Of a stretch of 53,717 bases of DNA, positions 3,327-43,838 are shown one piece after another. The translations under genes and the position numbers were made by a program. Source of the DNA: an uncultured beta proteobacterium (GTDB lineage Bacteria > Pseudomonadota > Gammaproteobacteria > Burkholderiales > Burkholderiaceae_C). How positions within the stretch are numbered: position 1 is the stretch's first letter; each line of letters opens with the position of its first letter. Where the stretch lies: positions 1 to 53,717 of the forward strand of contig CAIJOK010000087.1 in NCBI GenBank assembly GCA_903822205.1. Reading direction: 5' to 3'. The notes beneath the pieces are model-generated. The model was not told where the DNA came from and made no database searches. It saw nothing but the letters and a program-made list of their open reading frames with translations.

Positions 3327-3470
3327 GATGCAAACTGTACAGGGGTTTGCATCGCCTTGACCTGCCGAGCAGCATACAAAAAGTTATCAACACAATACGA
3401 AAGGCAAAAAGAGCGCCTGATGCTTGTCAAGAGTGCATATGGTGCTATCATTTTCATCTATGATCATGTC
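3232..3470. repeat. Direct repeat copy A: hpnK 5' end and leader
   Basis: This segment (first ~95 bp of the deacetylase gene plus ~145 bp upstream) is closely matched by 5420-5618 in the same orientation. Copy A carries an extra ~46 bp around 3329-3372 that is absent from copy B. Shared blocks include AAGACACGCTGGCGTTGA, CATACAAAAAGTTATCAAC and GCTATCATTT. The two copies bracket the TPR gene. Confidence 0.9.
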
Positions 3471-3471
3471 G
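3422..3471 (+). repeat. AT-rich dispersed intergenic element, member 1
   Basis: GCTTGTCAAGAGTGCATATG followed by GTGCTATCATTTTCATCTATGATCATG. It matches member 2 (5574-5637) almost throughout because both lie inside the duplicated leader. It is the only member not pointing at a nearby gene start; plus-strand reading runs into the 3' end of the TPR gene. Confidence 0.75.
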
Positions 3472-3563
3472 CGACCATCCTCGGCGGCATAAACCAGGAA
3501 TTGACCCTTGCCGGGTGGTGAGGGATTGGGATTGTCTGCTGCAAATAGCGCCCCGTGGCCCGA

Positions 3564-5291
3564 TCAATCACCCTGGAGAGATTCAAATTCAAATAACAAT
3601 CTGCTCAGATTTTCTTTAGCGTCGTGGTTGCCGGCCGCTGATGCCAGCGCTTTCTGTGTCAATAGCAAACTGCGGTATTCGGTGCGGTGAAACTGTTCAC
3701 GCTCCATCAGCCCGTCCAATAAATGGTGTGCTTCTTTGAGCTTACCTTTGCGAGCATGACAGCGTGCCAGTCCACATCGCGCAAAAAGATAGTCCGGAGC
3801 CAACTCATAAGCCCGACGGTAAAGGGCAGCAACCTCTTCAACAGAGTGCCCAAGTCCCTCTTTGATCGCGGCCAGATTGGATAGGGCAAGTGGATCGTCA
3901 GGGTACATTTTGAATAATGTCTGCGCCAGTATCAGCGCTTTTTGATATTGGTGATGTTCGACGGCTTGGAGGACTTGCTCGTGGATGGCTGCACCTTCAG
4001 GTGATAAATGACAGGGGCGTGGCTCATCTGTAATGCACACATCGTATGACCGAATGGTCTGCAATTTGCCAGATAGCCAAATCTGAACAGGATCAGATCG
4101 TTTTTTCAATCCTTGCTCAGTGAACCAATGCAAGGTATCCATCCGGACCTTGTCCGGCCCGTTGGAGTGTGTCAGTAAGGTTTCCAGGCCTGCTGTTGCC
4201 GCAGGGTCGGATCGCTTGGCGCGTTGCTTGAGAACGGACAACGCAAGAAAACGTGTTGTGGCATCGCCCAAATCGACAGCACGGACAAGATAATCCACGT
4301 GGGCATCACAGCTTGCAATTTCAGCCTCACAGCTTGCATTCCATTGAGACTCTGTGGATATTTTGTTTTTGTCAATAAATTTTGTTAATTGTTTTATCCA
4401 TGGCTCAGGAAACCACATGTAACTGCTGCCGGGTAATTCTGACCCCGGTTCTTTCAAACTGACAAATGTTTTTCGAAAACTATCGGCAGCATCATGCCAG
4501 TACGATGCATTTTTTGAACTTTGCCAAGCCCGTTGAACCGCTTTTTCGTCACCCAAAAAGCGTAATGCTGTAATTTGTGCCATAGCGTCTTCAACGCGGC
4601 GTGGTCGGGTATGTTGCAATGGGGCGGCAAAACCCATGCAGCGATCCAGGCCGTCCACCCAGCACCGCCAGCGCACGGCGCTTTCTAGGGCAAACAGGTT
4701 GTCTGGATAAGCCCGCCAATTGGCTTCAATGACATCGCGTGCCTGCACCAGGTCACCGGATATGAACAGCGCAAGGGCCAAATTGTTGCGTGCCGACGGG
4801 TGATCAACGTTTTTCAGCACTGCTATTGCAGCCGCTGAATTGCCATCAGCAAGGTGCATTCGTGAAAGATCAATCGCTTCAGCCTGCTCCAGACTCATTG
4901 TGCCAAGCTCAGAGTCGAATGATTGGGGAATTTTTAAGTCGTCTTGCTCGTTTTCTATCGCAGACAGACGTTGAAGAGCACAGGCACAGATGGCTGAATA
5001 GCCTGCAGAGAGGGAACTTTCGGACAAGGCCCTCAGTGCCACGCCGCTGCGGGGTGCGGCTCGATGCCATTCGTACGCACGGGCTGTGGCAAAAACAGGA
5101 TGACCGCCGCTATCTTCTATGTCCCAGGCCAATTTGAGCAAGGGTTTGAAGTCGGGATATGACTTGCGCAATGCGTCAAGACGCTTTCGGGCCTGCACCG
5201 TGTCACCACCATCGATCAAGCGGCGCACCGCATCGATCTGTGCTGAGTTGGGTGCAGTGATGTGTTTTTGGCGTTGATTCGACTTGGACAT
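3564..5291 (-). CDS. TPR-repeat protein, function unknown
   Basis: 575 residues from ATG at 5291 (MSKSNQRQ). The frame stays open upstream to a TTG at 5420, but that part lies in a duplicated deacetylase fragment and is not convincing; neither start has a clear Shine-Dalgarno. The protein has no signal peptide or membrane segment. It is helical throughout, with recurring TPR-like A/W-L-A-G-Y-F patterns. The clearest lie near the C-terminus (PLALSNLAAIKEGLG, then LYRRAYELAPDYLFARCGLARC), ending in a helix-rich tail. Such solenoids mediate protein-protein contacts; no catalytic motif is visible. Base composition looks less GC-rich than neighbouring genes, and the gene sits between 200-240 bp direct repeats, which suggests insertion or duplication. 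Confidence 0.75.
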   Translation of the reverse strand: MSKSNQRQKHITAPNSAQIDAVRRLIDGGDTVQARKRLDALRKSYPDFKPLLKLAWDIEDSGGHPVFATARAYEWHRAAPRSGVALRALSESSLSAGYSAICACALQRLSAIENEQDDLKIPQSFDSELGTMSLEQAEAIDLSRMHLADGNSAAAIAVLKNVDHPSARNNLALALFISGDLVQARDVIEANWRAYPDNLFALESAVRWRCWVDGLDRCMGFAAPLQHTRPRRVEDAMAQITALRFLGDEKAVQRAWQSSKNASYWHDAADSFRKTFVSLKEPGSELPGSSYMWFPEPWIKQLTKFIDKNKISTESQWNASCEAEIASCDAHVDYLVRAVDLGDATTRFLALSVLKQRAKRSDPAATAGLETLLTHSNGPDKVRMDTLHWFTEQGLKKRSDPVQIWLSGKLQTIRSYDVCITDEPRPCHLSPEGAAIHEQVLQAVEHHQYQKALILAQTLFKMYPDDPLALSNLAAIKEGLGHSVEEVAALYRRAYELAPDYLFARCGLARCHARKGKLKEAHHLLDGLMEREQFHRTEYRSLLLTQKALASAAGNHDAKENLSRLLFEFESLQGD

Positions 5292-5419
5292 TGGATGATG
5301 GGTTGATTTTGGCTTGACTTGAATTTGGCCACTGCATTGAATTATCACGTAGCAGATCAACCTAAATGCATCAGTTACCTCGTAGTCTGCCCGAGCTGCA
5401 CGGACAAATTGAGCGGTCA

Positions 5420-5522
5420 ATGCTTAAAGACACGCTGGCGTTGACGGCAAAGTCATCAGCGCACAAGATGATGCGTTTGAGAGGGCGTGGGTGAGTTTGT
5501 GGGGTGAGGAGGTCTATGCATC
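5420..5522 (-). pseudogene. Broken N-terminal fragment of a ChbG/HpnK deacetylase
   Basis: The minus strand encodes LKRIILCADDFAVNASVSLS, nearly identical to residues 13-32 of the intact deacetylase at 2454-3326. The only nearby ATG (5522-5520) is in a different frame from this segment, so a frameshift separates start and body. After the SVSLS block homology ends and the frame soon stops. It is a remnant of a duplicated gene, not a functional enzyme. Confidence 0.85.
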
Positions 5523-5618
5523 ATCATACAAAAAGTTATCAACATAATACGAAAGGCACAAAAAGTGCCTAACGCTTATCAATCGTGCATACAGCGCTAT
5601 CATTTCCATCTATTATCA
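5420..5618. repeat. Direct repeat copy B: hpnK 5' end and leader
   Basis: Second copy of the segment at 3232-3470, same orientation, lacking ~46 bp of copy A. It contains the deacetylase remnant and an AT-rich element. With copy A it forms direct repeats around the TPR gene. Confidence 0.9.
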
Positions 5619-5637
5619 TGTATGTAATTTATTTTGT
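5574..5637 (+). repeat. AT-rich dispersed intergenic element, member 2
   Basis: Reads GCTTATCAATCGTGCATACA then GCGCTATCATTTCCATCTAT and TATCATGTATGTAATTTATT. I used it as the reference copy for the family. It points toward the DUF3108 gene, ending about 110 bp before the chosen ATG. Confidence 0.85.
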
Positions 5638-5747
5638 ATAATGATTGTATTCGTGCTGTCTTGTCATGTCGGGTGATGCCCGCTGTGCTCATCCGATCGA
5701 CGAGACCCAACCTGTTTTCATCGTTGTTTTCATCCTTCTTTGCCCCT

Positions 5748-6923
5748 ATGACACTTCAACCTCGACTGATTTTGATCGCACTGGTGCTTGCAGCGCACCT
5801 GTCACTGTTGCAGGCCTTGTCTGCGGCATTGCCACTTGCATCACCCGTGGTGCAGTCCCCTGTGGTGATGCGTGTCATCCCATCGGCTATCAACGCTACG
5901 AACGCCACGAACGCCATTAACACCACCCTTGCCACCACGGCCACCTTGTTGCCTGTGCCGGCGGTTTTGACAAAGGCAAAGACCGTGACCGTCCAAGCGA
6001 CAGGCAGTGCCCCCGCACGGCCCAAACCTGTGGTGTCAAAACCAGCATCACCGCCACTTCCACTTGTTGGCAGCCTGAGCGATTTGGCATCCGTGGCCAC
6101 AGGGGAATCGCCTGTGAATGAGATCAACGAGATGAACCAGAACAAGGTTGAAGGGGGCAGCGTCACAGCTTCATCGTCCGCTTTATCGTCTGCTGTACCA
6201 GCCCAGGCATCCACCCAGCCGTTGGCACAGGCAGGGCCTATCGCCCCAACCTCTGCCAGCACACGTTCTGTCGTGGTCAATCCAGACAAAGTGCCCGCCT
6301 CGGTCAAACTGTTGTACCAGATTGAGTCGAGCAAGTTTCCATTGCCCCTGCACGGTGAGCTTTTGTGGATACGGTCGGAGCACAGTTACCAGGCACGCTT
6401 GAGTTTTGGGGCTTTGGGGCAGTCCAGAGTCCAGACCAGCCGAGGCCAGATCGGCGATGAAGGCTTGTTGCCCGATCGCTTTTCTGACAAATACCGCAGC
6501 GAACTGGCCGCGCATTTCAACCGTGAACGCGGCTTGGTGACGTTCAGTGCCAACACGCCTGATGCTGTACTGCCAAACGGCGCACAAGATCGCTTGAGTG
6601 TGCTGGTGCAACTCGCAGCCCTGGTGGCCAGTGCGCCAAACCGGTACGGCCCGGGCACAACCCTGACCCTGCCCACCATTGGCCCGCGCGATGCCGACCT
6701 GTGGGTGTTTGCCTTTGGCGCTGCCGAAACGCTGGACCTGCCGGGTGGCGCACAGCCCGCTATCAAACTGGTTCGCAGCCCGCGCCAAACCTACGATCAA
6801 AAAGTGGAAATCTGGCTCGTCCCCGCGCTGGGCTACCTGCCTGGCCGCATCCGCATCACCGAGTCCAACGGCGACGCTATGGACCAAAAATGGGTGTCCA
6901 GCGAGGCCCCTGTGTCACCCTGA
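5748..6923 (+). CDS. DUF3108 domain-containing protein
   Basis: 391 residues from ATG at 5748 (MTLQPRLILIALVLAAH), which gives an N-terminal hydrophobic signal/anchor segment. The frame is open back to 5634, but the extra 38 residues look non-conserved. A low-complexity stretch rich in Asn-Ala-Thr (NATNATNAINTT) and a Pro/Ala/Ser-rich linker follow. Residues about 190-385 match the DUF3108 pattern: YQIESSKFPLPLHGEL, RVQTSRGQIGDEGLLPDRF, then LPNGAQDRLSVLVQLAAL and EIWLVPALGYLPGRIRI. DUF3108 proteins are envelope-associated beta-rich proteins of unknown function, common in Burkholderiales. No operon partner is visible. The Shine-Dalgarno is weak. Confidence 0.8.
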   Translation: MTLQPRLILIALVLAAHLSLLQALSAALPLASPVVQSPVVMRVIPSAINATNATNAINTTLATTATLLPVPAVLTKAKTVTVQATGSAPARPKPVVSKPASPPLPLVGSLSDLASVATGESPVNEINEMNQNKVEGGSVTASSSALSSAVPAQASTQPLAQAGPIAPTSASTRSVVVNPDKVPASVKLLYQIESSKFPLPLHGELLWIRSEHSYQARLSFGALGQSRVQTSRGQIGDEGLLPDRFSDKYRSELAAHFNRERGLVTFSANTPDAVLPNGAQDRLSVLVQLAALVASAPNRYGPGTTLTLPTIGPRDADLWVFAFGAAETLDLPGGAQPAIKLVRSPRQTYDQKVEIWLVPALGYLPGRIRITESNGDAMDQKWVSSEAPVSP

Positions 6924-7263
6924 AAGCTGATGACAGTAAATTTGTTACCTAAAAAATTTAATAAAGTCGGCTACTATGCTTACCAGCAAAGCATAGTGCG
7001 CTATGAATATAGATTTTATTAGGTAGGTATTTTATTTTGCGAAATGACCTGGCCTTACGATCAGGATATGGCCCTTGACACGACATTCTTGCGACATGCT
7101 TGCGACATGCTTGTATCTGACACGCCGATCTGATCACCACTGGGTTTGCGTCATAGCCATGTCACATTTTGGCTGGGTGACGGGATGCCACCCTTATTTC
7201 AACTTCGGTTAGCATCTTCACGGCCTTCTTTTACCTCATTGATACAGACACTCTTAACACACC
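6924..7263. other. Intergenic region upstream of ccmF
   Basis: A 340-bp spacer with no convincing gene. It holds AT-rich element member 3 near its left end; the rest is unstructured to the eye. No ccmE-like coding sequence is present, although that gene often precedes ccmF. Confidence 0.6.
6978..7038 (+). repeat. AT-rich dispersed intergenic element, member 3
   Basis: Reads GCTTACCAGCAAAGCATAGT then GCGCTATGAATATAGATTTT and ATTAGGTAGGTATTTTATTT. It aligns with member 2 across its length (GCTTA-CA, GCATA, GCGCTAT, ATTTTAT, GTA, TTTATTTTG). It is oriented toward ccmF, ~225 bp upstream of its ATG. Confidence 0.8.
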
Positions 7264-9246
7264 ATGATCCCTGAAATCGGACATTTTGCATTGATTCTTG
7301 CACTGCTGGTCGCTACGGCAACCGGCGTTTTAAGCCTGGCTGGTGGGCAAACCGGACGCACCGACTGGATGGCGCTGGCCAAGCCTGGCGCACGGGCACT
7401 GTGGTTTTTAAGCAGTTTTGCCATCGTCTGCCTGACCTATTCGTTTTACACCAGCGACTTTTCTGTGTTGTACGTGGCCGAGCATTCCAACACCAAACTG
7501 CCAGACATTTACCGCATCGCTGCGGTCTGGGGCGGCCATGAGGGTTCCTTGCTGCTGTGGCTGGTGATGTTGTGCTCGTGGATGATGGCCATCTCCCTCT
7601 TTTCGCGCCAGTTGCCTGATGTGATGGTGGCGCGGGTATTGGGGGTGATGGCCCTGGTGGCCGTGGGCTTTTTGCTGTTCATGTTAGTCACCTCCAACCC
7701 CTTTATTCGCCTGAGCGACATCCCTGCCGATGGTCGTGACTTAAATCCTTTGTTGCAAGACCCTGGCCTGGTGTTTCACCCGCCCATGCTTTACATGGGC
7801 TATGTGGGCATGGCGGTGCCGTTTGCTTTTTCGATGGCCGCCCTGCTGGGAGGGCGGCTGGATGCGGCCTGGGCACGCTGGAGTCGCCCCTGGGCCACTG
7901 CCGCTTGGATCTGTCTGACACTGGGCATTGCGTTGGGGTCGTGGTGGGCCTATTACGAGCTGGGCTGGGGCGGCTGGTGGTTTTGGGACCCCGTTGAAAA
8001 CGCTTCCTTTTTGCCCTGGTTGGTAGGCACTGCGCTCATCCATTCGCTGGCCGTCACCGACAAACGTGGCTTGTTTCGCAATTGGACCATCATCTTGTCC
8101 CTGCTGGCCTTTGCGCTCAGCCTATTAGGGACATTTTTGGTGCGTTCCGGGGTGCTGACCTCTGTCCATGCGTTTGCGTCCGACCCCAAACGCGGTGTGT
8201 TTATTTTGGTGTTTTTGGCCGTGGTGGTCGGCAGCTCGCTGCTGCTGTTTGCGGCTCGTGCCGGAAGGGTTCGTTCAAGCGGTACGTTTGCCTTTGTCTC
8301 GCGTGAGACCTTTTTGCTGCTCAACAATGTTTTATTGACCACTGCTGCGGCGGCCGTGCTGCTGGGCACGCTCTACCCCTTGATCATCGACGCACTCAAC
8401 CTGGGCAAGCTATCAGTCGGCGCGCCTTACTTCAACAGCGTTTTCGCGCCCATCATGTGGCCGGTGTTGTTCTTGATGGTGGCCGGGGCGTTTGCCCGCT
8501 GGAAGACAGACAGTGCGACCGATCTGGCCCGCAAACTGTGGCCACTGGCCGCCATATCGGTCTTGTTGGGCAGCACAGCGCCCCTGCTGGCGGGTGAATG
8601 GTTGGCGCTGGTGGCGCTTAGCTTGTCGCTGGCCATCTGGATTATTTTGGCATCGCTTTGGCAAATGGCCAGACAAATCAAAGACACCGCACACTGGCAC
8701 ATGACACCCCTTGCATTTTGGGGTATGCACGTCGCACACATTGGCATTGCCGTGTGCGTGGTGGGCATCACCATGGTCAAGGGCTACGAGGCCGAAAAAG
8801 ATGTGCGCATGGCCATTGGCGACACGGTGACTGTGGGGGGCTATACCTTACGCCTGACCGCCATCAGCCAACAACCCGGCCCCAATTACATGGCCGATGT
8901 GGGAACGGTTGAGCTGCTCAAGGACGGCCGGGTGCTTAAAACTTTGCACCCCCAAAAACGCACGTATTTTTCGTCGTCCATGCCCATGACCGAGGCCGCG
9001 ATTGACAGCGGTTTCATCCGCGATGTGTATGTGTCGCTGGGCGAACAACTCGAAGGTGGTGACAAAACCGCATGGGCGATGCGCGTCTACCACAAGCCTT
9101 TTGTGCCGTGGATTTGGGCGGGTTGCCTGCTGATGGCCTTGGGTGGCGGCATGGCTGCGCTGGACAAACGCTACCGCAAAAAAGTGACCCCACCCCAAGT
9201 AGCCCATCCCATCAACGTGGGCCTTGCAGCGGGGGTGTCAGCATGA
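7264..9246 (+). CDS. ccmF: Cytochrome c maturation heme lyase subunit CcmF
   Basis: 660-residue polytopic membrane protein, the usual CcmF length. With CcmH/CcmI it attaches heme to apocytochrome c in the periplasm (system I). The tryptophan-rich WWD signature WGGWWFWDPVENASFLPWL lies at about 235-255. Conserved flanks follow (SGVLTSVHAFASDPKRGVF), as do the many transmembrane helices and the late periplasmic domain. The start ATG follows a long spacer. The stop overlaps the ccmG start (ATGA), so translation is coupled. ccmA-E and ccmH are not adjacent in this window, so the ccm genes are split in this genome. Confidence 0.95.
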   Translation: MIPEIGHFALILALLVATATGVLSLAGGQTGRTDWMALAKPGARALWFLSSFAIVCLTYSFYTSDFSVLYVAEHSNTKLPDIYRIAAVWGGHEGSLLLWLVMLCSWMMAISLFSRQLPDVMVARVLGVMALVAVGFLLFMLVTSNPFIRLSDIPADGRDLNPLLQDPGLVFHPPMLYMGYVGMAVPFAFSMAALLGGRLDAAWARWSRPWATAAWICLTLGIALGSWWAYYELGWGGWWFWDPVENASFLPWLVGTALIHSLAVTDKRGLFRNWTIILSLLAFALSLLGTFLVRSGVLTSVHAFASDPKRGVFILVFLAVVVGSSLLLFAARAGRVRSSGTFAFVSRETFLLLNNVLLTTAAAAVLLGTLYPLIIDALNLGKLSVGAPYFNSVFAPIMWPVLFLMVAGAFARWKTDSATDLARKLWPLAAISVLLGSTAPLLAGEWLALVALSLSLAIWIILASLWQMARQIKDTAHWHMTPLAFWGMHVAHIGIAVCVVGITMVKGYEAEKDVRMAIGDTVTVGGYTLRLTAISQQPGPNYMADVGTVELLKDGRVLKTLHPQKRTYFSSSMPMTEAAIDSGFIRDVYVSLGEQLEGGDKTAWAMRVYHKPFVPWIWAGCLLMALGGGMAALDKRYRKKVTPPQVAHPINVGLAAGVSA

Positions 9247-9773
9247 AAAAAACCTACATCCCGTTGGCTCTTTTTGCGGTGTTGCTGGTGTTTTTGGCCA
9301 TTGGACTCACCCGTGACCCCCGTGAAATACCGTCGCCGCTGATCGGCAAACCGGCCCCGGCTTTTTCAGCCCCTGTGCTGAATGCGGCAGGGCAGCGACT
9401 GGGCAGCAAGGACATGTTGGGGCAGGTATGGCTGCTCAATGCCTGGGCATCCTGGTGTGTGGCCTGCCGTGAGGAACACCCTCTACTGGTTGAATTTGCA
9501 AAAACCAACACCGTGCCCATCGTGGGCCTGGACTACAAGGACAGCGACGCGGCGGGCACAACCTGGCTGTCACGCTTTGGCAACCCTTACAGCACCGTGA
9601 TCACCGACCACGATGGCCGTATCGGGATTGACTTTGGTTTGTATGGTGTGCCTGAGAGCTTTTTGATCGACAAAGCCGGCATCATTCGCTACAAGCAGAT
9701 TGGCCCCATCACGCAGCAGGCCCTGAGGGACAAAATTTTGCCCCTGATTCAGTCGCTTAAAAAACAGGGCTGA
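9243..9773 (+). CDS. ccmG: CcmG/DsbE thiol:disulfide oxidoreductase
   Basis: 176-residue membrane-anchored thioredoxin-fold protein that reduces the CXXC heme-binding site of apocytochromes c. An N-terminal anchor (about 5-22) precedes the thioredoxin domain. The redox motif is WCVAC, with C72 and C75, and the cis-proline loop is GVPES. The GxxAPxF segment typical of the TlpA/CcmG family is present (GKPAPAFSAP, 36-45). The start ATG overlaps the ccmF stop by four bases. No ccmH follows; the next gene is on the opposite strand. Confidence 0.93.
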   Translation: MKKTYIPLALFAVLLVFLAIGLTRDPREIPSPLIGKPAPAFSAPVLNAAGQRLGSKDMLGQVWLLNAWASWCVACREEHPLLVEFAKTNTVPIVGLDYKDSDAAGTTWLSRFGNPYSTVITDHDGRIGIDFGLYGVPESFLIDKAGIIRYKQIGPITQQALRDKILPLIQSLKKQG

Positions 9774-9894
9774 AGAGGACTTAAAGTAAAGTAACTCAAC
9801 TCAACGCTACACGCCGATGTTTGCGCCCAAACACCCTCCCCGCATCAACGGGTGTGGCCAACGGGTGTGGCTGTGGGTGTGGCGTGAACACCGT

Positions 9895-10515: not shown

Positions 10516-10630
10516 GGGAGGGTTGTGGAGATGAATGAACACGCACGACTTTGTGAGAGGCCTAATTTGCCGACTGATTCTATACAGTGGGATGACTGAC
10601 CGTCATGGGTTGGAAAACCACCCGCAAAGA

Positions 10631-10671
10631 TAAAAGAAACCCCGAACAGCCAGCGCAGGCTTGTCCGCGCT
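10631..10671 (-). terminator. Probable intrinsic terminator after nadA
   Basis: On the minus strand just after the nadA stop, AGCGCGGACAAGCCTGCGCT can form a GC-rich hairpin. It is followed by GGCTGTTCGGGGTTTCTTTT. The structure resembles the one at 32180-32221. Confidence 0.5.
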
Positions 10672-10679
10672 CCCGGGCA

Positions 10680-18265: not shown

Positions 18266-18328
18266 AAAAAATAAATAACTTACATGATAAGTACAAAAAA
18301 CATAGCGAACTATGCTGTACTGGTAAGC
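18266..18328 (-). repeat. AT-rich dispersed intergenic element, member 4
   Basis: Minus strand: GCTTACCAGTACAGCATAGT then TCGCTATGTTTTTTGTACTT and ATCATGTAAGTTATTTATTT. Strong match to members 2 and 3 (GCTTA-CA, GCATA, GCTAT, TATCATGTA-GT, TTTATTT). It points toward the retropepsin gene, about 85 bp from its ATG. Confidence 0.82.
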
Positions 18329-18426
18329 AGTGTAGCCTATTTTATGTAATTTTTGATGTATAAAAATTATTGTAAATTGATCATCCAGCCCCATCCCAGC
18401 GCAAAGAGCGTGGGAACGCGACACAC

Positions 18427-18457: not shown

Positions 18458-18573
18458 CGGCTCGTGGTTTTGCGTCAGTTGCATATAAACAAATAGAAAA
18501 TCTGTCGTTGGCCAGGCCGGTATTGTGGGCACAATTGCCAGCTTATGCAGCATCCATTGTCCTTGTTTGTCCC

Positions 18574-19572
18574 ATGAAATTGAACTTAAAAACCGCTCTG
18601 ATGCTTGTCAGCACTGCATTGGTAGCTACACAATCAATAGCGTCGTCCGCTTTGCTGAATGCCTCTTACGACGTGTCGCGCGAGTTTTACAAAGAGTACA
18701 ACGCGGCTTTTGTCGCACACTACAAACAAACCACCGGTCAGGATGTCAGGGTCGATCAATCGCATGGCGGCTCAAGCGCCCAAGCGCGTGCCGTCAACGA
18801 TGGGCTGGAAGCCGATGTGGTGACCATGAACACCACCTCAGATGTTGAATTTTTGGCCGATGCCGGCATCGTGGCCAAAGACTGGGCCAAGCGTTTTCCG
18901 GACAACGCCGCCCCCACCACATCGACCATGCTGTTTTTAACCCGCACGGGCAACCCCAAAAACATCAAGGACTGGCGTGACCTGACGCGCCCTGATGTGC
19001 AGGTGATCGTGGTCAATCCAAAGACCGGTGGCAATGGTCGCATGGCCTATCTGGCGGCGTGGGGCTATGTGCGTAAGACCGGCGGCAGCGATGCCGATGC
19101 GGCTGAGTTTGTCCGCAAACTGTACAAAAACGTCCCCATTCTGGCCAAAGGCGGTCGCGATGCCACCACCATCTTTATCCAGCGCAACATTGGCGATGTG
19201 CTGATCACCTTTGAGTCCGAGGTGGTGTCCGTGCAGCGCGAATTTGGCGCAGGACGGGTGTCAGCGGTTCATCCGTCCGTCAGCATCCTTGCTGAAAACC
19301 CTGTTGCGGTCGTGGAGCGCACGATCGCCAAAAAAGGATCAGGCGCACTGGCCCGCGCTTACCTGGACTACCTTTACTCTGACACCGCCCAAGAAATCGC
19401 CGCCAAGCACGGTCTGCGCCCACGGTCACAGACGGTGCTTAAAAAGTACGCAAGCACTTTGTCGCCTATCCAACTGTTTACCGTGAGCGAATTTTTTGGG
19501 TCGCTCTCGCAGGCCCAAAAGGTTCACTTCAACGATGGTGGCCTTTTTGACCAGCTTTACACGGTCAAATAA
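18574..19572 (+). CDS. sbp: Sulfate-binding periplasmic protein
   Basis: 332 residues from ATG at 18574 (MKLNLKTALMLVST), giving a Sec signal peptide of about 25 residues; an upstream in-frame codon at 18508 would bury it. Periplasmic receptor of the sulfate/thiosulfate ABC importer. Typical Sbp segments include LLNASYDVSREFYKEYN, DQSHGGSSAQARAV (oxyanion binding), DVVTMNTTSDVEFL and GGNGRMAYLAAWG. It is followed by cysT, cysW and cysA on the same strand, completing the transporter. Confidence 0.95.
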   Translation: MKLNLKTALMLVSTALVATQSIASSALLNASYDVSREFYKEYNAAFVAHYKQTTGQDVRVDQSHGGSSAQARAVNDGLEADVVTMNTTSDVEFLADAGIVAKDWAKRFPDNAAPTTSTMLFLTRTGNPKNIKDWRDLTRPDVQVIVVNPKTGGNGRMAYLAAWGYVRKTGGSDADAAEFVRKLYKNVPILAKGGRDATTIFIQRNIGDVLITFESEVVSVQREFGAGRVSAVHPSVSILAENPVAVVERTIAKKGSGALARAYLDYLYSDTAQEIAAKHGLRPRSQTVLKKYASTLSPIQLFTVSEFFGSLSQAQKVHFNDGGLFDQLYTVK

Positions 19573-23557: not shown

Positions 23558-23620
23558 AAAATAAAAAGTTAACTACGTGATAAAATCAAAAACAATAGCA
23601 GTCTGTGCAACAAAGACGTG
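23558..23620 (-). repeat. AT-rich dispersed intergenic element, member 5
   Basis: Minus strand: GTTGCACAGACTGCTATTGT then TTTTGATTTTATCACGTAGT and TAACTTTTTATTTTC. It aligns with member 2 over GTGCA-ACAG-GCTAT, TATCA-GTA-GTAA and TTTATTTT; its 5' part is more diverged. It points at ppx and ends about 27 bp before the ATG. Confidence 0.65.
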
Positions 23621-23684
23621 CATTAGCACCCACATGCAATCAAACATAATGTAGTTAATTTATAAAATATAGAGTTTCTAACGC

Positions 23685-29073: not shown

Positions 29074-29149
29074 GCGGCTGTAGCTCAGTGGATAGAGTAT
29101 TGGCCTCCGAAGCCAAGGGTCGTGGGTTCGATCCCCGCCAGCCGCACCA
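29074..29149 (+). tRNA. tRNA-Arg (anticodon CCG)
   Basis: 76-nt cloverleaf including an encoded CCA (29147-29149). The acceptor stem is GCGGCTG/CAGCCGC. The D-arm contains AGCTCAGTGGATAGAG. The anticodon stem TTGGC/GCCAA encloses loop CTCCGAA with CCG at 29107-29109, and the T-arm is GTGGGTTCGATCCC. It decodes CGG. No duplicated 3' end was seen nearby, so there is no direct sign of an integrated element in this gene. Confidence 0.96.
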
Positions 29150-33430: not shown

Positions 33431-33440
33431 AAAACCGTTA

Positions 33441-33504
33441 TTTTCAATAAATAAGCTACTTTATAAATCCTGAAAAGATAGCGCTACAAGCACTATTGAT
33501 AAGC
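33441..33504 (-). repeat. AT-rich dispersed intergenic element, member 6
   Basis: Minus strand: GCTTATCAATAGTGCTTGTA then GCGCTATCTTTTCAGGATTT and ATAAAGTAGCTTATTTATTG. It matches member 2 at GCTTATCAAT-GTGC-T, AGCGCTATC-TTTC, TAT-A--GTA and TTATTT. It points at the yihY-like gene and ends ~11 bp before its ATG. Confidence 0.85.
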
Positions 33505-33614
33505 ATCTGTAACAAATTATTCAAAATAATGATGTAGATAATTTATTATATTATGCCTTTTGCACGCCATGCGTCATGGACGGAGAGCGTTCATCCACAA
33601 TTTGGCAGAGGCGA

Positions 33615-36553: not shown

Positions 36554-37314
36554 GCTGCGGCGCGAATGCAGCGCAGATAGTCCCTCACAGTGGCTGCATA
36601 GCCCATCTCCAGCGCGTCCGAGATCAGGGCATGACCGATCGACACCTCACGCACCCCGGGCACATGCGCCAAAAATGTTGCCAAGTTGTCGCGGTTCAAG
36701 TCATGACCTGCATTCACACCCAAACCTGCCACTTGCGCCGCCAGCGCCGCCTGTGCGAAACGCTCAAGTTGCAGTGACTGGCTTGAAGTTCCCCATGCTG
36801 CGGCATAAGGCTGGGTGTAAAGCTCGACGCGGTCAGCCCCGCAGGCTTTGACATCGGCCATCATGTGGGCATTGGCATCCACAAACACACTGACTTGCAG
36901 CCCCCAGGCGCGGGCTTGCGCGATCTTGGGCTCCAGACTTTTGGCATCAACTGGCAAATCAAAGCCGTGGTCGCTGGTCTGTTGCCCAACGGCATCAGGA
37001 ACAAACGTCAGTTGATGAACAGGCAGATGCGCCTCCACAAGAAGCAAGGCCACATCCATCAGATTATGGAAGGGGTTGCCCTCGATGTTGAACTGCCGCC
37101 CTGGCCACGATTGCATCAGGGCCGCCAGTGCAGTCACATCGCTGGTGCGAATGTGGCGCTGGTCAGGGCGAGGATGCACCGTAATGCCATTGGCCCCTGC
37201 TTGCAAACACAGGTCTGCGGCGCGCAAGACATCCGGGATGCCCAGCGACCGGGTATTGCGAACCAGCGCCACCTTGTTGAGGTTGACCGAAAGCGCAGGT
37301 ATCTTGCGTTTCAT
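36550..37314 (-). CDS. pdxJ: Pyridoxine 5'-phosphate synthase PdxJ
   Basis: 254 residues. Final ring-forming step of DXP-dependent vitamin B6 synthesis. The start [26 protein letters not shown], the catalytic [15 protein letters not shown] and [13 protein letters not shown] region, and [17 protein letters not shown] followed by [16 protein letters not shown] are all family-typical. It is coupled to acpS downstream. An 11-bp tandem repeat sits immediately before the ATG, leaving no standard Shine-Dalgarno. Confidence 0.95.
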
Positions 37315-37358
37315 GGGGTATCTTTGGGGTATCTTTGGGGCATCTTTGGGGCATCATC
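37315..37358. repeat. 11-bp tandem repeat abutting the pdxJ start codon
   Basis: Four head-to-tail copies of GGGGTATCTTT (two exact, two with C for T at position 5, the last also diverged at its end). The first copy touches the pdxJ ATG, so the repeat occupies the ribosome-binding region. Confidence 0.95.
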
Positions 37359-37394
37359 AGGTCTGTCGCTGCCCCGATGCTGAAAGGTGCTGCC

Positions 37395-38609
37395 CTATTG
37401 GTGCAAAACTTTGGCCACGGGGTGGTGGCGCAGCCGAAAGGCATCAGGCATGCCTGAGCCTAACAATGGACGCAGATAAAGTCTGAACGTGTCGGTGACA
37501 TCGGTGCCACTTTCGGTGATGAAGTCATCCTCCATGGTGCGCGTTTTGCCGGCAACAGCCTCAACGGGCAAGAGTTCATAGTCAACAGAATAAAACCCTG
37601 TGCGCTTGATGGCCACCGATCCATCACGGTCACCCCACATGGCAAACTGAACGGCTTTTTCACCCACTTCGCGAGCCTCACGCTGATCCACGTCGGACGT
37701 GCAACCGATGAAAGACCGCTGGAGATACCCAAAGGTATCGCCGCGAACGCGCTTGATGCCCAGCTTGGATTTGATCTCGTCGCACAGCAGATCAGCCAAA
37801 GCGCCGTTGCCCGAAAGCTGGACGTTACCGTGGGCATCGTGCTCAAGCTCTTTGGACAGCAGTGAGGCGATCGGTGTACCGGATGCATCGTGGATGCCCT
37901 CCGACACAGCGATCACGCAACGACCGTGGCGCTCGTACATGGTCTTGACATCGCCCAAAAATCGGGGCAGGTCAAAGGTACGTTCAGGCAAATAGATCAA
38001 GTGCGGGCCGTCGTCCGGAAACTTTTTACCCAGCGCTGACGCAGCCGTCAAAAACCCGGCGTGTCGGCCCATGACCACGCCCACATAGACACCCGGCAAA
38101 GCGGCGTTGTCCAGGTTGGCACCAGCAAAGGCCTGCGCCACAAAGCGGGCTGCTGACGGAAAGCCGGGGGTGTGGTCGTTGCCCACCAAATCGTTGTCGA
38201 TGGTTTTGGGCACATGAATGCTGCGCAACGGATAGTTGGCAGCGCGGGCCTCTTGGCTAACGATACGGACGGTGTCCGACGAATCATTGCCGCCGATGTA
38301 AAAAAAGTGACCGATTTTGTGGGCTTGCAAGACTTTGAAAATCTCGCGACAGTAGGCTTCATCGGGCTTGTCGCGCGTTGAACCCAGTGCAGACGATGGG
38401 GTGTTGGCGACAAGTTCAAGGTTGTGGCTGGTCTCTTGCGTCAAGTCCTCAAAATCTTCGTCAATGATGCCGCGCACACCGTGGTGCGCGCCGTAAATGT
38501 GGCCAATGTGGCCAAAGCGACGGGCTTCAAGGGCCACGCCTACCAGCGATTGGTTGATCACGGCGGTGGGGCCGCCGCCTTGGGCGACAAGTATTTTTCC
38601 GGGTGCCAT
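37395..38609 (-). CDS. pfp: 6-phosphofructokinase, pyrophosphate-dependent type
   Basis: 404 residues from ATG at 38609 (MAPGKILVAQGGG), preceded by AGGAAAATACC; an earlier in-frame codon at 38636 lacks support. Interconverts fructose 6-phosphate and fructose 1,6-bisphosphate. Phosphoryl-donor determinants are those of PPi enzymes: GGNDS at 106-110 instead of the ATP-type GGDGS, and VPKTIDNDL (about 133-141), where Lys replaces Gly of the ATP-PFK GTIDND motif. YVGVVMGRHAGFL and the EG-I loop (VSEGIH) are conserved. It is divergent from rplS. The donor is inferred from these residues. Confidence 0.9.
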   Translation of the reverse strand: MAPGKILVAQGGGPTAVINQSLVGVALEARRFGHIGHIYGAHHGVRGIIDEDFEDLTQETSHNLELVANTPSSALGSTRDKPDEAYCREIFKVLQAHKIGHFFYIGGNDSSDTVRIVSQEARAANYPLRSIHVPKTIDNDLVGNDHTPGFPSAARFVAQAFAGANLDNAALPGVYVGVVMGRHAGFLTAASALGKKFPDDGPHLIYLPERTFDLPRFLGDVKTMYERHGRCVIAVSEGIHDASGTPIASLLSKELEHDAHGNVQLSGNGALADLLCDEIKSKLGIKRVRGDTFGYLQRSFIGCTSDVDQREAREVGEKAVQFAMWGDRDGSVAIKRTGFYSVDYELLPVEAVAGKTRTMEDDFITESGTDVTDTFRLYLRPLLGSGMPDAFRLRHHPVAKVLHQ

Positions 38610-38753
38610 AGGTATTTTCCTGCTTGATCGGGTCAATGGGGTCAGTGAACGAAGGGCGGATTCTAGTCGTGCAAGTCCAGAAAACCCGCGTCAGGTGCAG
38701 CAATGGGGTGTCACGCCCAGAACGCGGTTGTGTGCAATTCCCGCCTATACAAT

Positions 38754-38783
38754 GCACCCCCCTGATAAGCACCCCCCTGATAA
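38754..38783. repeat. 15-bp tandem duplication just upstream of rplS
   Basis: Two perfect copies of GCACCCCCCTGATAA lie head to tail between a TATACAAT promoter-like box (38746-38753) and the AAGAGG ahead of rplS. Confidence 0.97.
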
Positions 38784-38803
38784 ATAAGAGGTTATACAAA
38801 ACC

Positions 38804-39256
38804 ATGAATCTGATTCAAACTCTTGAACAAGAAGAAATCGCTCGCTCAAACAAAACCATCCCTGACTTTGCGCCTGGTGACACTGTCGTGGTCAATCTGA
38901 ACGTGGTTGAGGGCAGCCGCAAGCGCATCCAAGCCTATGAGGGTGTCGTGATCGCCAAGCGCAACCGCGGCTGGAACAGCGGCTTTATCGTTCGCAAAAT
39001 TTCAAGCGGTGAGGGTGTCGAGCGCACTTTTCAGGTCTATAGCCCGCTCATCGCCAGCATTGAGGTCAAGCGTCGCGGGGCTGTTCGCCGCGCCAAACTT
39101 TACTATCTGCGCGACCGCAGCGGCAAATCTGCCCGTATTCGCGAAAAACTGCCGTCACGCTCATCTGCTCGCTCTTCTGTCTCGTCGCTTCTCCCGTCGC
39201 TTGTCCCTTCCTCAGCGCCGGTGGCGGTTGACAGTACTGTCCTGACGCAAGACTGA
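38804..39256 (+). CDS. rplS: 50S ribosomal protein L19
   Basis: 150 residues from ATG at 38804 ([12 protein letters not shown]). The L19 core is complete: [37 protein letters not shown] and [13 protein letters not shown], read in pieces, ending [19 protein letters not shown]. Beyond it is a Ser/Pro/Val-rich tail of about 30 residues not present in the ~115-residue standard protein. rplS is usually the last gene of rpsP-rimM-trmD-rplS. Here it stands alone, with pfp divergent upstream. Confidence 0.95.
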
Positions 39257-39348
39257 CACTTCCTTTGGAACCTCTCCGGTCGCACCAGGGGCTGACCGGT
39301 CGGGCTGTATTCGCAACGCCCCACGCTTTCATTGACCAGGGAGCTTTT

Positions 39349-41160
39349 ATGCCGCTCAGACACGTTCTTCGCAGATTTGTCCCCGCTGCACTGGCGCTCT
39401 TGCTGTGTGCGTTGGGGACATGGCATCCGGCCCACGCAGTGGATGAAAAATCATCCGCACTGGCTGAACTCAACCAAACACGCCAGTTGGTTGGACTGCC
39501 AACTGTCACACGCAATGACCAATTGGACCAGGCCGCGCAGGCCCATGCTGACTACCTGCAAACCAACCTTGATGGCATTTCGCACGACGAAACTTTAGGT
39601 CTGCCAGGATTTACCGGGGCAGCACCTGCAAATCGCCTGACGGCTGCGGGCTATGCGTGGAGCACCGTGAGTGAGGTCATCAGCGGCGGCATCAGCGGTG
39701 GGCAAAAGGCCGTGCGCAGTCTCGTGCAGGCCATTTATCACCGCTTTGGCATTTTGGCTCCCGCCATGGCCGAGGCTGGTTTTGGTATTGGCACAGTCAC
39801 CGGTAAGTCACCTAACCTGGTGATCGACTTGGGGGCTACATCCCGCAACGCTGTGACAATGCGCGCAGACTGGCTGGGCACGTACCCCGTCAATGGTCAG
39901 ACCGATGTGGTGCGTGACTTTCTGTCTGACAATGAGACACCTGATCCTGTGGCCGGCAGCAATCGGGTGGGCTATCCAGTCAGCATCCATGCCGGTGCCA
40001 GCGATTCTTTGCATGTGAGCAGCTTTACCCTTAAACCCGCTGGGGGTGCGCCGGTGCAGGTTCAATTGCTGGCATCTCCATCAGACCCCCATGTGCCCAC
40101 CAGCGCGGCCGCCATCGTGCCACTGTCTGTGCTGGACTATGGCACACAGTACCAAGCGGACTTTGTGGGCACCCGCAACGGTCTGCCCGTGTCGCTCAGT
40201 TGGACATTTACCACCATCGCTTACTCTCCCCTAAAGGTGGACATGCCCTACCAGCGCATTGTCGCTGGCCAGGCAGCCAGAGTGCAGGTCAGTGGTGGTT
40301 ATGGCGGCATTAGTTGGCAGAAAACCACCTATCGGTTGGCTGCAGCCAACGCGCCGGCCCCCACCGTCACCCAAATTTCTTCGGGCCTGTTTGAGGTTTC
40401 TGCCTCATCTGCCATGGAGGTCACGAATGAATTTTGTGACGCTGAGGGGCAGATCGTATCCGCCATCCTCAGCTTTGCAGACCCCCTGACTGAAACCGTG
40501 AACTTGGTGTCTGGCTGGAATCTGGTGGGCAATCCCTTGTTGTCCCCCATCATCATGCTCGCCCGCTTTGGCAGCGCTGACGCTCCTGTAGCGGGCGTGA
40601 CCGGTAGCGTGGTCACGGTCTGGAAGTGGCTACCGGCCCAGGCCCAGTGGGCTTTTTATGCCCCATCGATGACCGCCGCAAATTTGGCCGCTTATGCATC
40701 CAAAAAGGGTTATGCCGTACTGGAGCAAATTGCCCCGGGAGAAGGCTATTGGGTCAATACCAAAGCCGAGCTGTCTTTGCCAGATCGCACCGGTTTATCG
40801 GTATCGTCCTTGCCCATAGCGCCTCTGCCCAGTGGCTGGAGCTTGCTGGGCGTGGGTGCTGAGGCCCTGACCCCTGCGGCGTTTGACAAAGCCCTGTCCA
40901 CTGGTGTCATCAGCGGCTTGTCCTTGATCTTCACCACAGAGAGCTGGCGCATATCGAATGGCCTGGCCGCCGTTCCCAGCCTCAAGACGCTTTGGTCTTG
41001 GGACGCAGCGTCCGCCAAATGGCGGTTTTTTGCCCCAAGTCTGGCGCTGCAAGGTGGCACAGCCTTGAGCGACTATGCCACCTCCAAGGGCTATCAGCCG
41101 TATGACCTGGCAGAGCACCTGTATTTGCCGGTCGGGGCGGGTTTTTGGGTAAACAAGTAG
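39349..41160 (+). CDS. Secreted CAP/SCP-domain protein with duplicated C-terminal module
   Basis: 603 residues from ATG at 39349, with AGGGAG 6 nt upstream. The signal peptide ends AHA at residue 30. Residues about 35-175 form a CAP (SCP/PR-1-like) domain: LAELNQTRQLVGLPTVTRND, AAQAHADYLQTN, HDETLGLPGFTG, VSEVISGG and YHRFGILAPAMAEAGFG. A central Ig-like region leads to two ~100-residue tandem modules. Each starts SGW-(N/S)-L-(V/L)-G (about 387 and 496), has a W-x-W near the middle, F(Y/F)APS, an A/S-YA-(S/T)-KGY segment, and ends G-(Y/F)-WVN(T)K (about 465 and 603). Function unknown; probably extracellular or surface-bound. The 93-bp gap after rplS suggests possible cotranscription. Confidence 0.82.
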   Translation: MPLRHVLRRFVPAALALLLCALGTWHPAHAVDEKSSALAELNQTRQLVGLPTVTRNDQLDQAAQAHADYLQTNLDGISHDETLGLPGFTGAAPANRLTAAGYAWSTVSEVISGGISGGQKAVRSLVQAIYHRFGILAPAMAEAGFGIGTVTGKSPNLVIDLGATSRNAVTMRADWLGTYPVNGQTDVVRDFLSDNETPDPVAGSNRVGYPVSIHAGASDSLHVSSFTLKPAGGAPVQVQLLASPSDPHVPTSAAAIVPLSVLDYGTQYQADFVGTRNGLPVSLSWTFTTIAYSPLKVDMPYQRIVAGQAARVQVSGGYGGISWQKTTYRLAAANAPAPTVTQISSGLFEVSASSAMEVTNEFCDAEGQIVSAILSFADPLTETVNLVSGWNLVGNPLLSPIIMLARFGSADAPVAGVTGSVVTVWKWLPAQAQWAFYAPSMTAANLAAYASKKGYAVLEQIAPGEGYWVNTKAELSLPDRTGLSVSSLPIAPLPSGWSLLGVGAEALTPAAFDKALSTGVISGLSLIFTTESWRISNGLAAVPSLKTLWSWDAASAKWRFFAPSLALQGGTALSDYATSKGYQPYDLAEHLYLPVGAGFWVNK

Positions 41161-41172
41161 CCTGATAGGGTC

Positions 41173-43779
41173 CTAGGCCAGTGCTGCGAGCAGTTCGGTT
41201 TCGATCTCGATCTGCCCTCGGCTGTATTGCAATGCTGCCCCCTGGATCACAAACGTGTCCTCTACGCGCTCGCCCAGGGTATTGACTCTGGCCAGTTGCA
41301 GGTCGATGTGGTGGCGTGCCAGCACCCGTGCCACGCAATACAAAAGCCCTACCTTGTCACTGGCCGAGATGTAGAGCAGCCAGCGCTGTGCTCTATCGTC
41401 GGGCTTGAGCATCACGCGCGGTGTGATTGGAAAATTTTTGACCCGCCGCGACACACGGCTGCGCGCAGGTTCAGGCAGTGGCCCAGCCGTTGCGATCACC
41501 TTGGACAGCTCAGACTGAATCATGCTGATCAGCTCGCGGTAATGGTCGCCCAGATGGGTGGTGATGACCTCAAAGGTGTCCAGCGCATAGCCCTTCTGTG
41601 TCGTGTGAATGCGGGCATCCAAAATGCTGAATCCACCATGGTCAAAATAGCCGCAGATACGCGCAAACAGGTCAGCTTGGTCGGGGGTATAGACCACCAC
41701 TTGCAGGCCCTCGCCCACCGGAGACGGATGGGCACGGACCACCGGCGTGGTTGTACACAGATGCCGCGACAGTTGCCGCGTGTGCCAGGCAATGACGGAG
41801 GCATCGTGGCGCATGAAATACCCCACGTCCAAGGTATTCCAGAACGCAGTGTGTGCCCCAAACGGCAGTGCGTAAGGGGCCAATAACACCAAAGCCTCAT
41901 GCTGTCTTTGCTTAACTTCGGTGTCGGGGTCTGGCGTGTGACCCCCCAAAGCCCGCAGTGTGGCGCGGTACAAATCCTCCAGCAGCTTGCCCTTCCAGGC
42001 ATTCCAGACCTTGGGGCTGGTGGCCCGGATGTCTGCGACGGTAAACAAATAGAGCGCTGTCAAATACCGCTCAGACCCAAGCTGTTTGGCAAACTGGGTG
42101 ATCACGTCAGGGTCGCTGATGTCTGACTTTTGGGCAATGCGGCTCATGGTCAGGTGCTCGCGAACGATAAATTCGATCAACTGGCTGTCATCGTGCGACA
42201 GATGGCTTTGTCGGCAAAAACGTCGCACGGCGACAGCCCCCAGTTGGGAGTGATCGCCGCCCCTGCCTTTGGCAATGTCATGAAACAGCGCTGCCGTGTA
42301 CAGCACCCAGGGCTGATGCCAGTCGCTGGCCAGTTGCGAGCAAAACGGGTATTCATGGGCGTGCTCGACGATAAAAAACCGGCGCAGGTTGCGCAGCACC
42401 ATCAAAATGTGCTGATCGACTGTATAGACGTGAAACAGATCGTGCTGCATCTGCCCCACGGTGTGGCGAAAGGCCCACAGATAGCGACCCAGCACAGACG
42501 TTTGGTTCATCAGCCGCATGGCATGGGTGATGCCGTCTTGCTGCATCAAAATCTGGCAAAAGGTAGCCCGATTGACGGGGTCACGTCTGAATTTGCCATC
42601 CATCAAAGGTCGGGCGTTGTACAGGGCACGCAGGGTGCGTGCCGATAGGCCCAAAAGACCGGCATAGGTTTGATAGACCAAAAACGTCTGCAAAATGGCG
42701 TGAGGATGGCGGTGGTACAGGTCGTCGCTGGCCACCTCAACCATACCGGCATTGTCCAAAAAATGCTCATTCAAGGGTTGCAAGGGGCGGCTGGATGGGT
42801 TAAGCCGCGCCTCAATGTTCAGCAGCAATATTTGATTGAGTTGGGTGACGGCCTTGGCGGCCAAATAGTAGTGGCGCATCAGCTCTTCGCTGGGGCGTGC
42901 AAAAGCCCTGGCATCGGTGGCAAGGTCAGGCGGCTGATAGCCAAAAGACTGAGCCAGGACGCTTTGCAGGTCAAACACCAGGCGGTCTTCACGCCGCTTG
43001 GCGTGCAGATGCAAGCGCGCCCTGATCAAGTGCAGCAGAGCCTCGTAACGCATGATCTGCTTCAGTTCAAATGCCGTCGTCAGGCCGTTTTGGGCCAACA
43101 ACTTCCAGTCGCCACCAAAGCCCGCAGCCCGCGCCACCCATAAGACCACGTGCAAATCGCGCAGTCCACCGGGCGACTCTTTGCAGTCAGGCTCAAGCGC
43201 GTAAGGGGTATTTTCAAACTGGGTGTGACGCTGGCGCATCTCAAGGGTTTTGGCCACAAAAAATGCTCGCGGGTCGATAGTGGCCACAAATTGCCGATGC
43301 AAATCGTCCAGCAGGCCGCGACAGCCTGTGATCAGTCGGGCCTCAAGCAGCGCAGTCTGCACGGTCACGTCGGCTGCTGATTGCGCCAGGCAGTCGCTCA
43401 CATTGCGAACGCTTGAGCCGATCTCAAGACCCGCATCCCAGCAAGCGCTGATAAAGCCCTCGATGCGAACCTTCAGTGCAGGGTCGTCATCGGGCGACTG
43501 GTCTGACGGCAGCAGCACCAGCACGTCAATGTCCGAATACGGAAACAACTGTTGTCTTCCAAACCCGCCTACCGCTACCAGGGCAAAGCTGTCGTCAAAC
43601 CCCGCTTTGTGCCACAGGGTGATCAGCAGGGCATCGGCCAGATCAGAGAGCTGATGCAGCACGGTATGGATGCTGCGGGGTAAAAACCGGCGGTCGGCCA
43701 AGCAGGCTAACAGGGCTGCCTTGTCGGCACGGAATTGCCCACGCAGAATCGTCCAATCATTCACGGGCAAACTACTCAT
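41173..43779 (-). CDS. glnD: [Protein-PII] uridylyltransferase / uridylyl-removing enzyme
   Basis: 868 residues. Nitrogen sensor that uridylylates PII when glutamine is low and removes UMP when it is high. The nucleotidyltransferase motif GGFGRQQLFPYSDIDVLVL lies near residues 66-85. The central HD domain (HDIAKGRGGDHSQLG) carries deuridylylation activity, and two C-terminal ACT domains sense glutamine (VVYTPDQADLFARICGYF and LYISASDKVGLLYCVARVLA). Located downstream of map on the same strand, a common Burkholderiales order. AT-rich element member 7 ends at its ATG. Confidence 0.96.
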   Translation of the reverse strand: MSSLPVNDWTILRGQFRADKAALLACLADRRFLPRSIHTVLHQLSDLADALLITLWHKAGFDDSFALVAVGGFGRQQLFPYSDIDVLVLLPSDQSPDDDPALKVRIEGFISACWDAGLEIGSSVRNVSDCLAQSAADVTVQTALLEARLITGCRGLLDDLHRQFVATIDPRAFFVAKTLEMRQRHTQFENTPYALEPDCKESPGGLRDLHVVLWVARAAGFGGDWKLLAQNGLTTAFELKQIMRYEALLHLIRARLHLHAKRREDRLVFDLQSVLAQSFGYQPPDLATDARAFARPSEELMRHYYLAAKAVTQLNQILLLNIEARLNPSSRPLQPLNEHFLDNAGMVEVASDDLYHRHPHAILQTFLVYQTYAGLLGLSARTLRALYNARPLMDGKFRRDPVNRATFCQILMQQDGITHAMRLMNQTSVLGRYLWAFRHTVGQMQHDLFHVYTVDQHILMVLRNLRRFFIVEHAHEYPFCSQLASDWHQPWVLYTAALFHDIAKGRGGDHSQLGAVAVRRFCRQSHLSHDDSQLIEFIVREHLTMSRIAQKSDISDPDVITQFAKQLGSERYLTALYLFTVADIRATSPKVWNAWKGKLLEDLYRATLRALGGHTPDPDTEVKQRQHEALVLLAPYALPFGAHTAFWNTLDVGYFMRHDASVIAWHTRQLSRHLCTTTPVVRAHPSPVGEGLQVVVYTPDQADLFARICGYFDHGGFSILDARIHTTQKGYALDTFEVITTHLGDHYRELISMIQSELSKVIATAGPLPEPARSRVSRRVKNFPITPRVMLKPDDRAQRWLLYISASDKVGLLYCVARVLARHHIDLQLARVNTLGERVEDTFVIQGAALQYSRGQIEIETELLAALA

Positions 43780-43780
43780 A

Positions 43781-43838
43781 AAATGTTATTTACTTGATAA
43801 ATCATCTTTTTATAGCAATCAATGCAATTCAGCAGTGC
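43781..43838 (-). repeat. AT-rich dispersed intergenic element, member 7
   Basis: Minus strand: GCACTGCTGAATTGCATTGA then TTGCTATAAAAAGATGATTT and ATCAAGTAAATAACATTTT. It aligns with member 2 over TGCAT, GCTAT, TATCA-GTA, GTAA and ATTTT. It points at glnD and ends directly at its start codon, so it supplies the ribosome-binding region. Confidence 0.7.

Follow-up and report, generated by a model that had tools for sequence, protein, structure and literature searches.

The seven AT-rich stretches that had been predicted in a 53,717-nucleotide contig of an uncultured beta proteobacterium (CAIJOK010000087.1; the whole of it is here called the window) are copies of a nearly palindromic element of about 107 bp, made of a core of about 65 bp enclosed between 20-bp inverted arms. 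It is well supported that these copies form a real family, that they were inserted at the places where they now stand, and that they are the form taken in one lineage by a repeat of the Comamonadaceae. We explain the seven sites, with a probability of roughly 0.55, as copies of a mobile, non-autonomous palindrome that a transposase of the type associated with repetitive extragenic palindromes (REP-associated tyrosine transposase, RAYT) may have spread and that is now fossil. The spacer motifs, unexplained before, can now be read as one element whose ends are defined and which has an ancestor and a candidate transposase. No published description of this repeat was found in a literature search.

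The armed element and its copies in the genome

All seven stretches (m1 to m7 along the window) were found in place and with the sequence blocks ascribed to them. When each was searched for in the window with a nhmmer profile built from the other six, E-values were at most 2e-4 in six cases (m1, 1.9e-4; m2, 3e-8; m3, 4.7e-8; m4, 5.3e-8; m5, 9.3e-5; m6, 6.2e-7), the best match outside the seven ranging between 0.018 and 0.11 across eight nhmmer runs. In the case of m7 the E-value was 0.096, outscored by the unrelated stretch 2736-2764 (E 0.023), and this copy is inseparable from the window background using the six other copies alone; it is a full-length match of the larger, 107-bp model, which contains the predicted stretch.

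The original prediction had described a unit of about 60 bp. Lining up the copies together with their flanks showed that those boundaries were wrong: the 60 bp are the 3' half of the armed element, and the inverted arms had been missed. The left arm reads AcAAtAAaTTAt.TACat.AT and the right arm is the same sequence inverted, the arm consensus matching itself in inverted order as terminal inverted repeats do, while the middle holds GCaCGTC (or GCTTATCA), TGCATag and GCTAT. Conservation of the columns is correlated about the middle (r 0.43, with 60% of the consensus complementary), and some off-centre axes give the same r of 0.43 with less complementarity. The mean match to the consensus is 0.74 in the left arm, 0.76 in the core and 0.83 in the right arm.

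Searched with the model of the seven copies, the genome of the window (G000; 3.05 Mb in 146 contigs) gave at least 147 matches at E<=1, with 150 of 715 candidates scored. Two samples of this genome were searched with an armed model made of 35 full-length copies. The first, which had supplied most of these copies, comprised the window and 20 stretches of the genome (400 kb), together 453,659 bases; the second comprised 388,000 bases of contigs that had given no training copy, and both add up to 842 kb or 28% of the genome. The armed model yielded 37 matches at E<=0.01 in the first sample and 28 in the second, and none in the reversed sequence of either; five Markov-shuffled sets of spacers gave nothing above 7.9 bits, so that the profile search proposed with the prediction returned a clear excess over controls. 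The estimate of about 220 armed copies per genome may be somewhat high because both samples were drawn from contigs already listed with matches. The seven copies claimed as a minimum were thus real, and the true number had been missed. A core model trained on the congener G010 (see below) gave 22 matches at E<=1e-3 in the same genome, copies without arms included.

With genes called by a simple in-house gene finder, 35 of the 37 matches of the first sample lay mostly outside genes, even though spacers make up 52,351 of its 453,659 bases; the other two were partial core matches, one of them in the window. In the second sample this was true of 25 of 28, the remaining three being one full copy that overlaps a called gene and two weak core-only matches. 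The restriction to spacers that had been asserted therefore stands for 60 of 65 matches of the full model (the other five comprising four partial cores and the one full copy overlapping a gene) and fails for the core, which also occurs inside genes, once in the window at 18579-18644. The AT-richness and the divergence attributed to the copies were both borne out for the armed form.

Comparison of 52 copies gave a mean pairwise identity of 56% and a maximum of 83%, no pair thus exceeding 90%, and the median identity to the nearest neighbour among 46 copies was 0.70. These copies thus show no sign of a recent burst. Against the consensus the 46 copies accumulate 1,515 substitutions and 8 indel events. 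The rarity of length changes in armed copies is not an artefact of detection, because after the addition of one artificial indel 50-51 of the 52 copies were still found full-length (51 of 52 without it). The kept spacing leaves room for a present-day function of the copies.

Empty sites and the core repeat in other genomes

Examination of two sites in relatives led us to conclude that the copies were inserted, because both sites are empty there. Of 80 loci of relatives, 78 have glnD next to a map-like gene for an M24 peptidase; in G000 the spacer between the two genes is 103 bp long and consists of m7. At L060-L064, the five loci that head the list (GlnD 70-74% identical), this spacer measures 24, -13, 37, 18 and 11 bp as estimated from the aligned GlnD start, and the armed model found no match at E<=10 in this spacer of the relatives' loci. 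At the second site, inside an operon (C139:19435), the spacer is 113 bp in G000 as against -16 to 54 bp in the 11 congeners, out of 12, that could be scored, and the flanking genes overlap in 6 of those 11. No target-site duplication above chance was detected in 52 copies, whose distribution resembled that of shuffled flank pairs. Y1 transposases are expected to join their DNA without duplicating the target.

Used on relatives outside G000, the armed model matched mostly over its middle only. Nineteen such matches, in genomes of the genus other than G000 and G010, served as seeds of a core model. In 400 kb of G010, a complete congener, this model found 48 copies at E<=0.01, and 57 after three rounds of retraining, with no match in reversed sequence at any time; the estimate is of about 700 core copies in that genome. 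The consensus of the G010 core is AAAT.GGCCT.TAGCGCTT.T.......GCGCAAG.AGCTAT.......TAGC, and in the reciprocal search the G010 model matched the armed copies of G000 at their core. The suggestion that the window holds a lineage version of a Comamonadaceae repeat was thereby upheld. A survey of the family with the G010 model (E<=1e-3) gave matches in 33 of 80 genomes, G000 included, and at least 60 matches in 16 of them; an order-level survey, with 60 genomes drawn, matched G000 only, and the other families that were tried gave nothing. Within the one genus the number of core matches per genome runs from 0 to at least 118, and named carriers among the fetched loci include Acidovorax temperans, Simplicispira metamorpha, Polaromonas sp. 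and Xenophilus aerolatus. The full armed set was seen only in the species of the window among 41 genomes of the genus, two congeners (G006 with three, G005 with two) having related copies whose match extends over almost all of the armed model and whose outer arms differ. By reading, such copies at L142, L037 and L147 have longer arms, about TAAGCC.TT.CC.GCAAGTTTTCTACGCAT.

Copies of the core inside genes had been overlooked. In G010, 20 of the 57 core copies lie mostly within genes, and a search of 342 of its genes alone gave 20 matches at E<=0.01 compared with none in ten codon-shuffled sets. All 14 in-gene copies on the strand of the gene are in one frame, and five of the six on the opposite strand are in another; the peptide encoded reads about PVALVNKAQAATENIA. 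The copy in G010 PurL is an insertion of ten residues relative to Salmonella PurL and that in a CoA-transferase is located where the best alignment ends, while comparison of the RecC copy revealed no clear insertion. In 16 of 58 loci of relatives PurL has an in-frame core match in a variable loop (..ASS....SSYQK.SA..), one of the two models used having been retrained on some of these copies (L060, L063, L065, L066, L073, L077, L082, L087, L090, L093-L096, L105, L107 and L113). In-frame copies in unrelated genes hold for the G010 core and not for the armed form.

A ligA-like gene also has a core-like stretch in which rare-looking codons (TTA or TTG, ATA) are kept across genera (L065 10772, L072 4722, L077 17067, L094 16351, L095 16705, L096 15293); we did not count this region as an insertion, for the DNA resembles the core without any change in length, as judged by reading. 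Some congener cores (L149, L150, L159) translate, also by reading, as membrane segments or signal peptides.

A role as terminator was discarded for lack of a common rule, because convergent spacers hold no excess of armed copies (1 of 35 compared with 13 of 142 in the first sample, 2 of 23 with 16 of 117 in the second) and are a rather frequent place for G010 cores (11 of 34 with 20 of 154).

A proposed transposase link and competing explanations

The mechanism that we favour would be as follows. A chromosomal transposase of the RAYT type, or of its relative associated with terminal inverted repeats (TIRYT), would have acted in trans and spread the core as single-stranded DNA, joining it without target duplication; an armed derivative would have multiplied in the ancestry of the source species; and the transposase gene would then have been lost, leaving copies that decay in place with their spacing better kept than their sequence. 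That a RAYT spread the core is plausible, somewhat short of an even chance, the link being indirect. Y1 transposase genes (PF01797) were present in all 12 repeat-rich family genomes and in 8 of 12 repeat-poor ones, the genomes having been chosen by their core counts. Around one gene from each, 5 of the 12 rich genomes and none of the 8 poor ones have a same-strand core (E<=0.01) located at the stop codon or spanning it; three more rich genomes have a weaker core at the stop codon, and in G058 a core lies upstream of the likely start. Within the genus the RAYT gene was found in 36 of 41 genomes, and not in G000, G008, G042, G046 and G048. At 30 RAYT loci of congeners, where rich means at least 72 core matches and poor at most 11, 8 of the 15 rich genomes, and none of the 15 poor ones, have the core at the stop codon (11 and 0 counting weak matches), with a P value of 0.0011 that overstates independence because the stop-codon copies are largely orthologous. 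This core keeps a near-fixed distance from a conserved TGTCCCCAATT at the end of the RAYT gene.

Several observations, the orthology of these copies being one, weigh against this reading. RAYT genes are present in many repeat-poor congeners and no RAYT was found in repeat-rich G008 (82% complete). Cores are common anyway in the spacers of rich genomes (34 spacer copies in G010, for 154 spacers of at least 60 bp), the arms fit no REP model, and the RAYT gene has in TGTCCCCAATT a separate conserved end motif, as TIRYTs have. As for insertion, the map-glnD spacer reaches 100 bp or more without the element in 8 of 78 relatives, and the third site (C16:79967) showed no synteny in relatives, one of the 25 loci being G000 itself, so that insertion is read from two sites. 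Column conservation in the copies is far too uneven for simple decay (variance 0.0424, compared with at most 0.0072 simulated under uniform decay) and net length changes are few, affecting 16 of 57 full-length armed matches of both samples and never exceeding 2 nt; both features could point to selection acting on the copies themselves. Finally, the sampled 28% of G000 showed no gene enclosed by these arms.

In G000 no match to the RAYT of its relatives was found, and the only Y1 gene found is of another type (C55, L140). This gene was not taken as the partner of the element; by reading, it sits in a locus resembling a type I restriction-modification system. A core without arms lies about 600 bp from it. 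In the repeat-rich family genome G063, C1 has 20 Y1 transposase matches, several equal-scoring and some split.

A broader version of the mobile-palindrome reading is offered tentatively, as possible rather than probable. The palindromic repeat may have originated where a tyrosine transposase gene, passed on vertically, has its 3' end, and become mobile throughout the family, reaching hundreds of copies and supplying a reusable peptide in frame; the armed derivative may have radiated in one lineage after loss of the transposase, filling a large share of its spacers.

The least unlikely of the rivals, rather unlikely in our judgement, is an ordinary miniature inverted-repeat transposable element (MITE) of an unknown DDE-type insertion sequence, in which the arms are the terminal inverted repeats and the core is a passenger. 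The 20-bp inverted arms, the many copies, their insertion in spacers and the restriction of the full set to one species of the genus are as expected of a MITE, and the differently armed, longer-armed copies of G006 and G005 (by reading) also agree with it. Bacterial MITEs such as the Correia/NEMIS elements resemble the armed element in their length of about 100 bp, in their inverted ends, in numbering hundreds of copies in spacers and in lacking coding capacity. The armed element differs from them in lacking a target duplication above chance, in that no parent insertion sequence was found in the 842 kb, and in having a core wider in distribution than its arms. Moreover, all 58 arm matches (E<=30) in the 388 kb of the second sample are at elements, the first sample contains 23 weak arm-like matches elsewhere (best E 7.4) with no pair seen around a gene, and the core is kept about as well as the arms.

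It is quite unlikely that the copies are a selected DNA site, for instance one at which a nucleoid or chromosome-maintenance protein contacts spaced blocks. Such a site would agree with the fixed block spacing of all 55 G010 cores scored at E<=1e-4, which show no net length change despite about 15 of 51 positions differing from the consensus in each copy, and with the small length changes of the armed copies given above, detection by the armed model being tolerant of indels. The empty sites in relatives, one of them in an operon whose genes overlap in most congeners scored, argue against it, as do the patchy presence of the core in the family and the genus and the absence of any evident replication-strand bias in 20 stretches along the G010 chromosome. 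We also considered a site for integration host factor (IHF): the right arm resembles the IHF consensus, but its best-kept letters fall at the free positions of that consensus, and the candidate was rejected by reading.

A structured RNA, or a folded single-strand recombination site resembling attC, is very improbable, and for the armed form this reading is largely refuted. The layout is palindromic and 18 of 52 armed copies fold with z below -2; RNAalifold nevertheless gave no consensus structure from the 52, pairing between arms occurred in 71.8% of cells compared with 71.1% after partners were reshuffled between copies, and the two arms of a copy are no better matched than arms taken from different copies. 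No stem stands out in the G010 cores either, and in the window Rfam gave only the tRNA 29074-29146 above its gathering score. The covariation that the original prediction proposed to look for was hence absent from the armed copies and from the cores of this congener, and appeared weakly in one hairpin of 63 cores pooled across the family. This stem, 13-17/25-29 (TAGC.CTT..AAGCGC), was the best of all stems scanned, with pairing of 0.66 within copies against 0.59 expected and one in 2000 shuffles as good, uncorrected for the scan, and it remained the best without the 21 copies at purL- and ligA-like sites. Because of this one weakly supported stem the ancestral core may have carried a hairpin.

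Chance similarity of AT-rich spacers, which are 8-10 points AT-richer than the genes, has a negligible probability and is refuted by the 37 and 28 real matches, reversed sequence having given none at E<=0.01 and shuffled spacers no score higher than 7.9 bits.

To our knowledge in-frame palindromic repeats are known mainly from Rickettsia, and the Comamonadaceae now constitute a second, free-living group that has them, with many genomes. As one genus ranges from genomes with no match to one with about 700 estimated copies, the link between RAYT gene, repeat and protein change becomes testable by comparison.

The Rickettsia palindromic elements, described as about 150 bp long and in frame within genes (PMC10969869), are alike in being short palindromes found in spacers and in frame in unrelated genes with a recurrent peptide; here the core is about 65 bp, the host belongs to the Comamonadaceae and a RAYT gene is linked to the repeat in repeat-rich species. 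With the REP/RAYT and TIR/TIRYT systems (REPtrons and TIRtrons) the repeat shares its many copies, the lack of target duplication and, in about half of the repeat-rich relatives, a copy beside a single-copy Y1 gene. TIRYT gene ends carry GGGGWSAS and REPs measure 20-40 bp (PMC3733652). The RAYT gene of the relatives ends near a GGGGACA-type motif close to that of TIRYTs, TGTCCCCAATT fitting it, by reading, except for the last letter in most species; the element is longer than REPs and its stem is weakly supported. No GTAG or CGTC tag was recognised in the repeat, no search aimed at such tags having been made. Finally, the betaproteobacterial repeat elements (BREs) are likewise small dispersed repeats, mostly in spacers, reported also from Comamonadaceae; in Bordetella they are given as 75-91 bp long with a mean of 69% GC, some of them tandem and variable in number (PMC3110155). 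The armed element is AT-rich and single, with no tandem arrays in the samples, and is set apart from BREs by their description.

The copies of the window and their neighbours

Element m1 (3376-3472, plus strand), the special case whose right arm is absent, stands between a YdjC-like gene and a TPR gene, and its core is the stretch 3422-3471 of the prediction. The full copies m2 (5528-5636, plus strand), in the divergent spacer of the TPR gene and a DUF3108 gene, and m3 (6933-7039, plus strand), after the DUF3108 gene and before ccmF, follow. The others are full copies on the minus strand: m4 (18267-18373) between genes for an aspartyl-protease-like and a solute-binding protein, m5 (23560-23666) between Ppx/GppA and GATase genes, m6 (33443-33549) between BrkB-like and GGDEF response-regulator genes, and m7 (43777-43883), which occupies the entire map-glnD spacer, a spacer that most relatives have short.

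The unarmed core at 18579-18644 (plus strand) is within the start of the solute-binding-protein gene 18574-19572 (assigned by Pfam). It was detected with E 1.8e-5 by the G010-trained model and with E 1.1e-4 in the family survey, where the match at 18578-18644 is one of the 22 in G000, the armed model giving a partial match at 18572-18629, and its frame is that of the same-strand in-gene copies of G010; the encoded segment is, by reading, signal-peptide-like.

In three armed copies the left-arm motif ACARTAA seems to provide the stop codon for the gene that lies upstream (..MINLQ*): one is at window positions 18373-18382, and the others, at 1447 and 2338 of L031, are 891 bp apart behind similar gene ends. 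The left part of m1 and m2 is unusual and common to both, with a short hairpin (AGGCAC..GTGCCT in m2); it looks as if one copy derived from the other.

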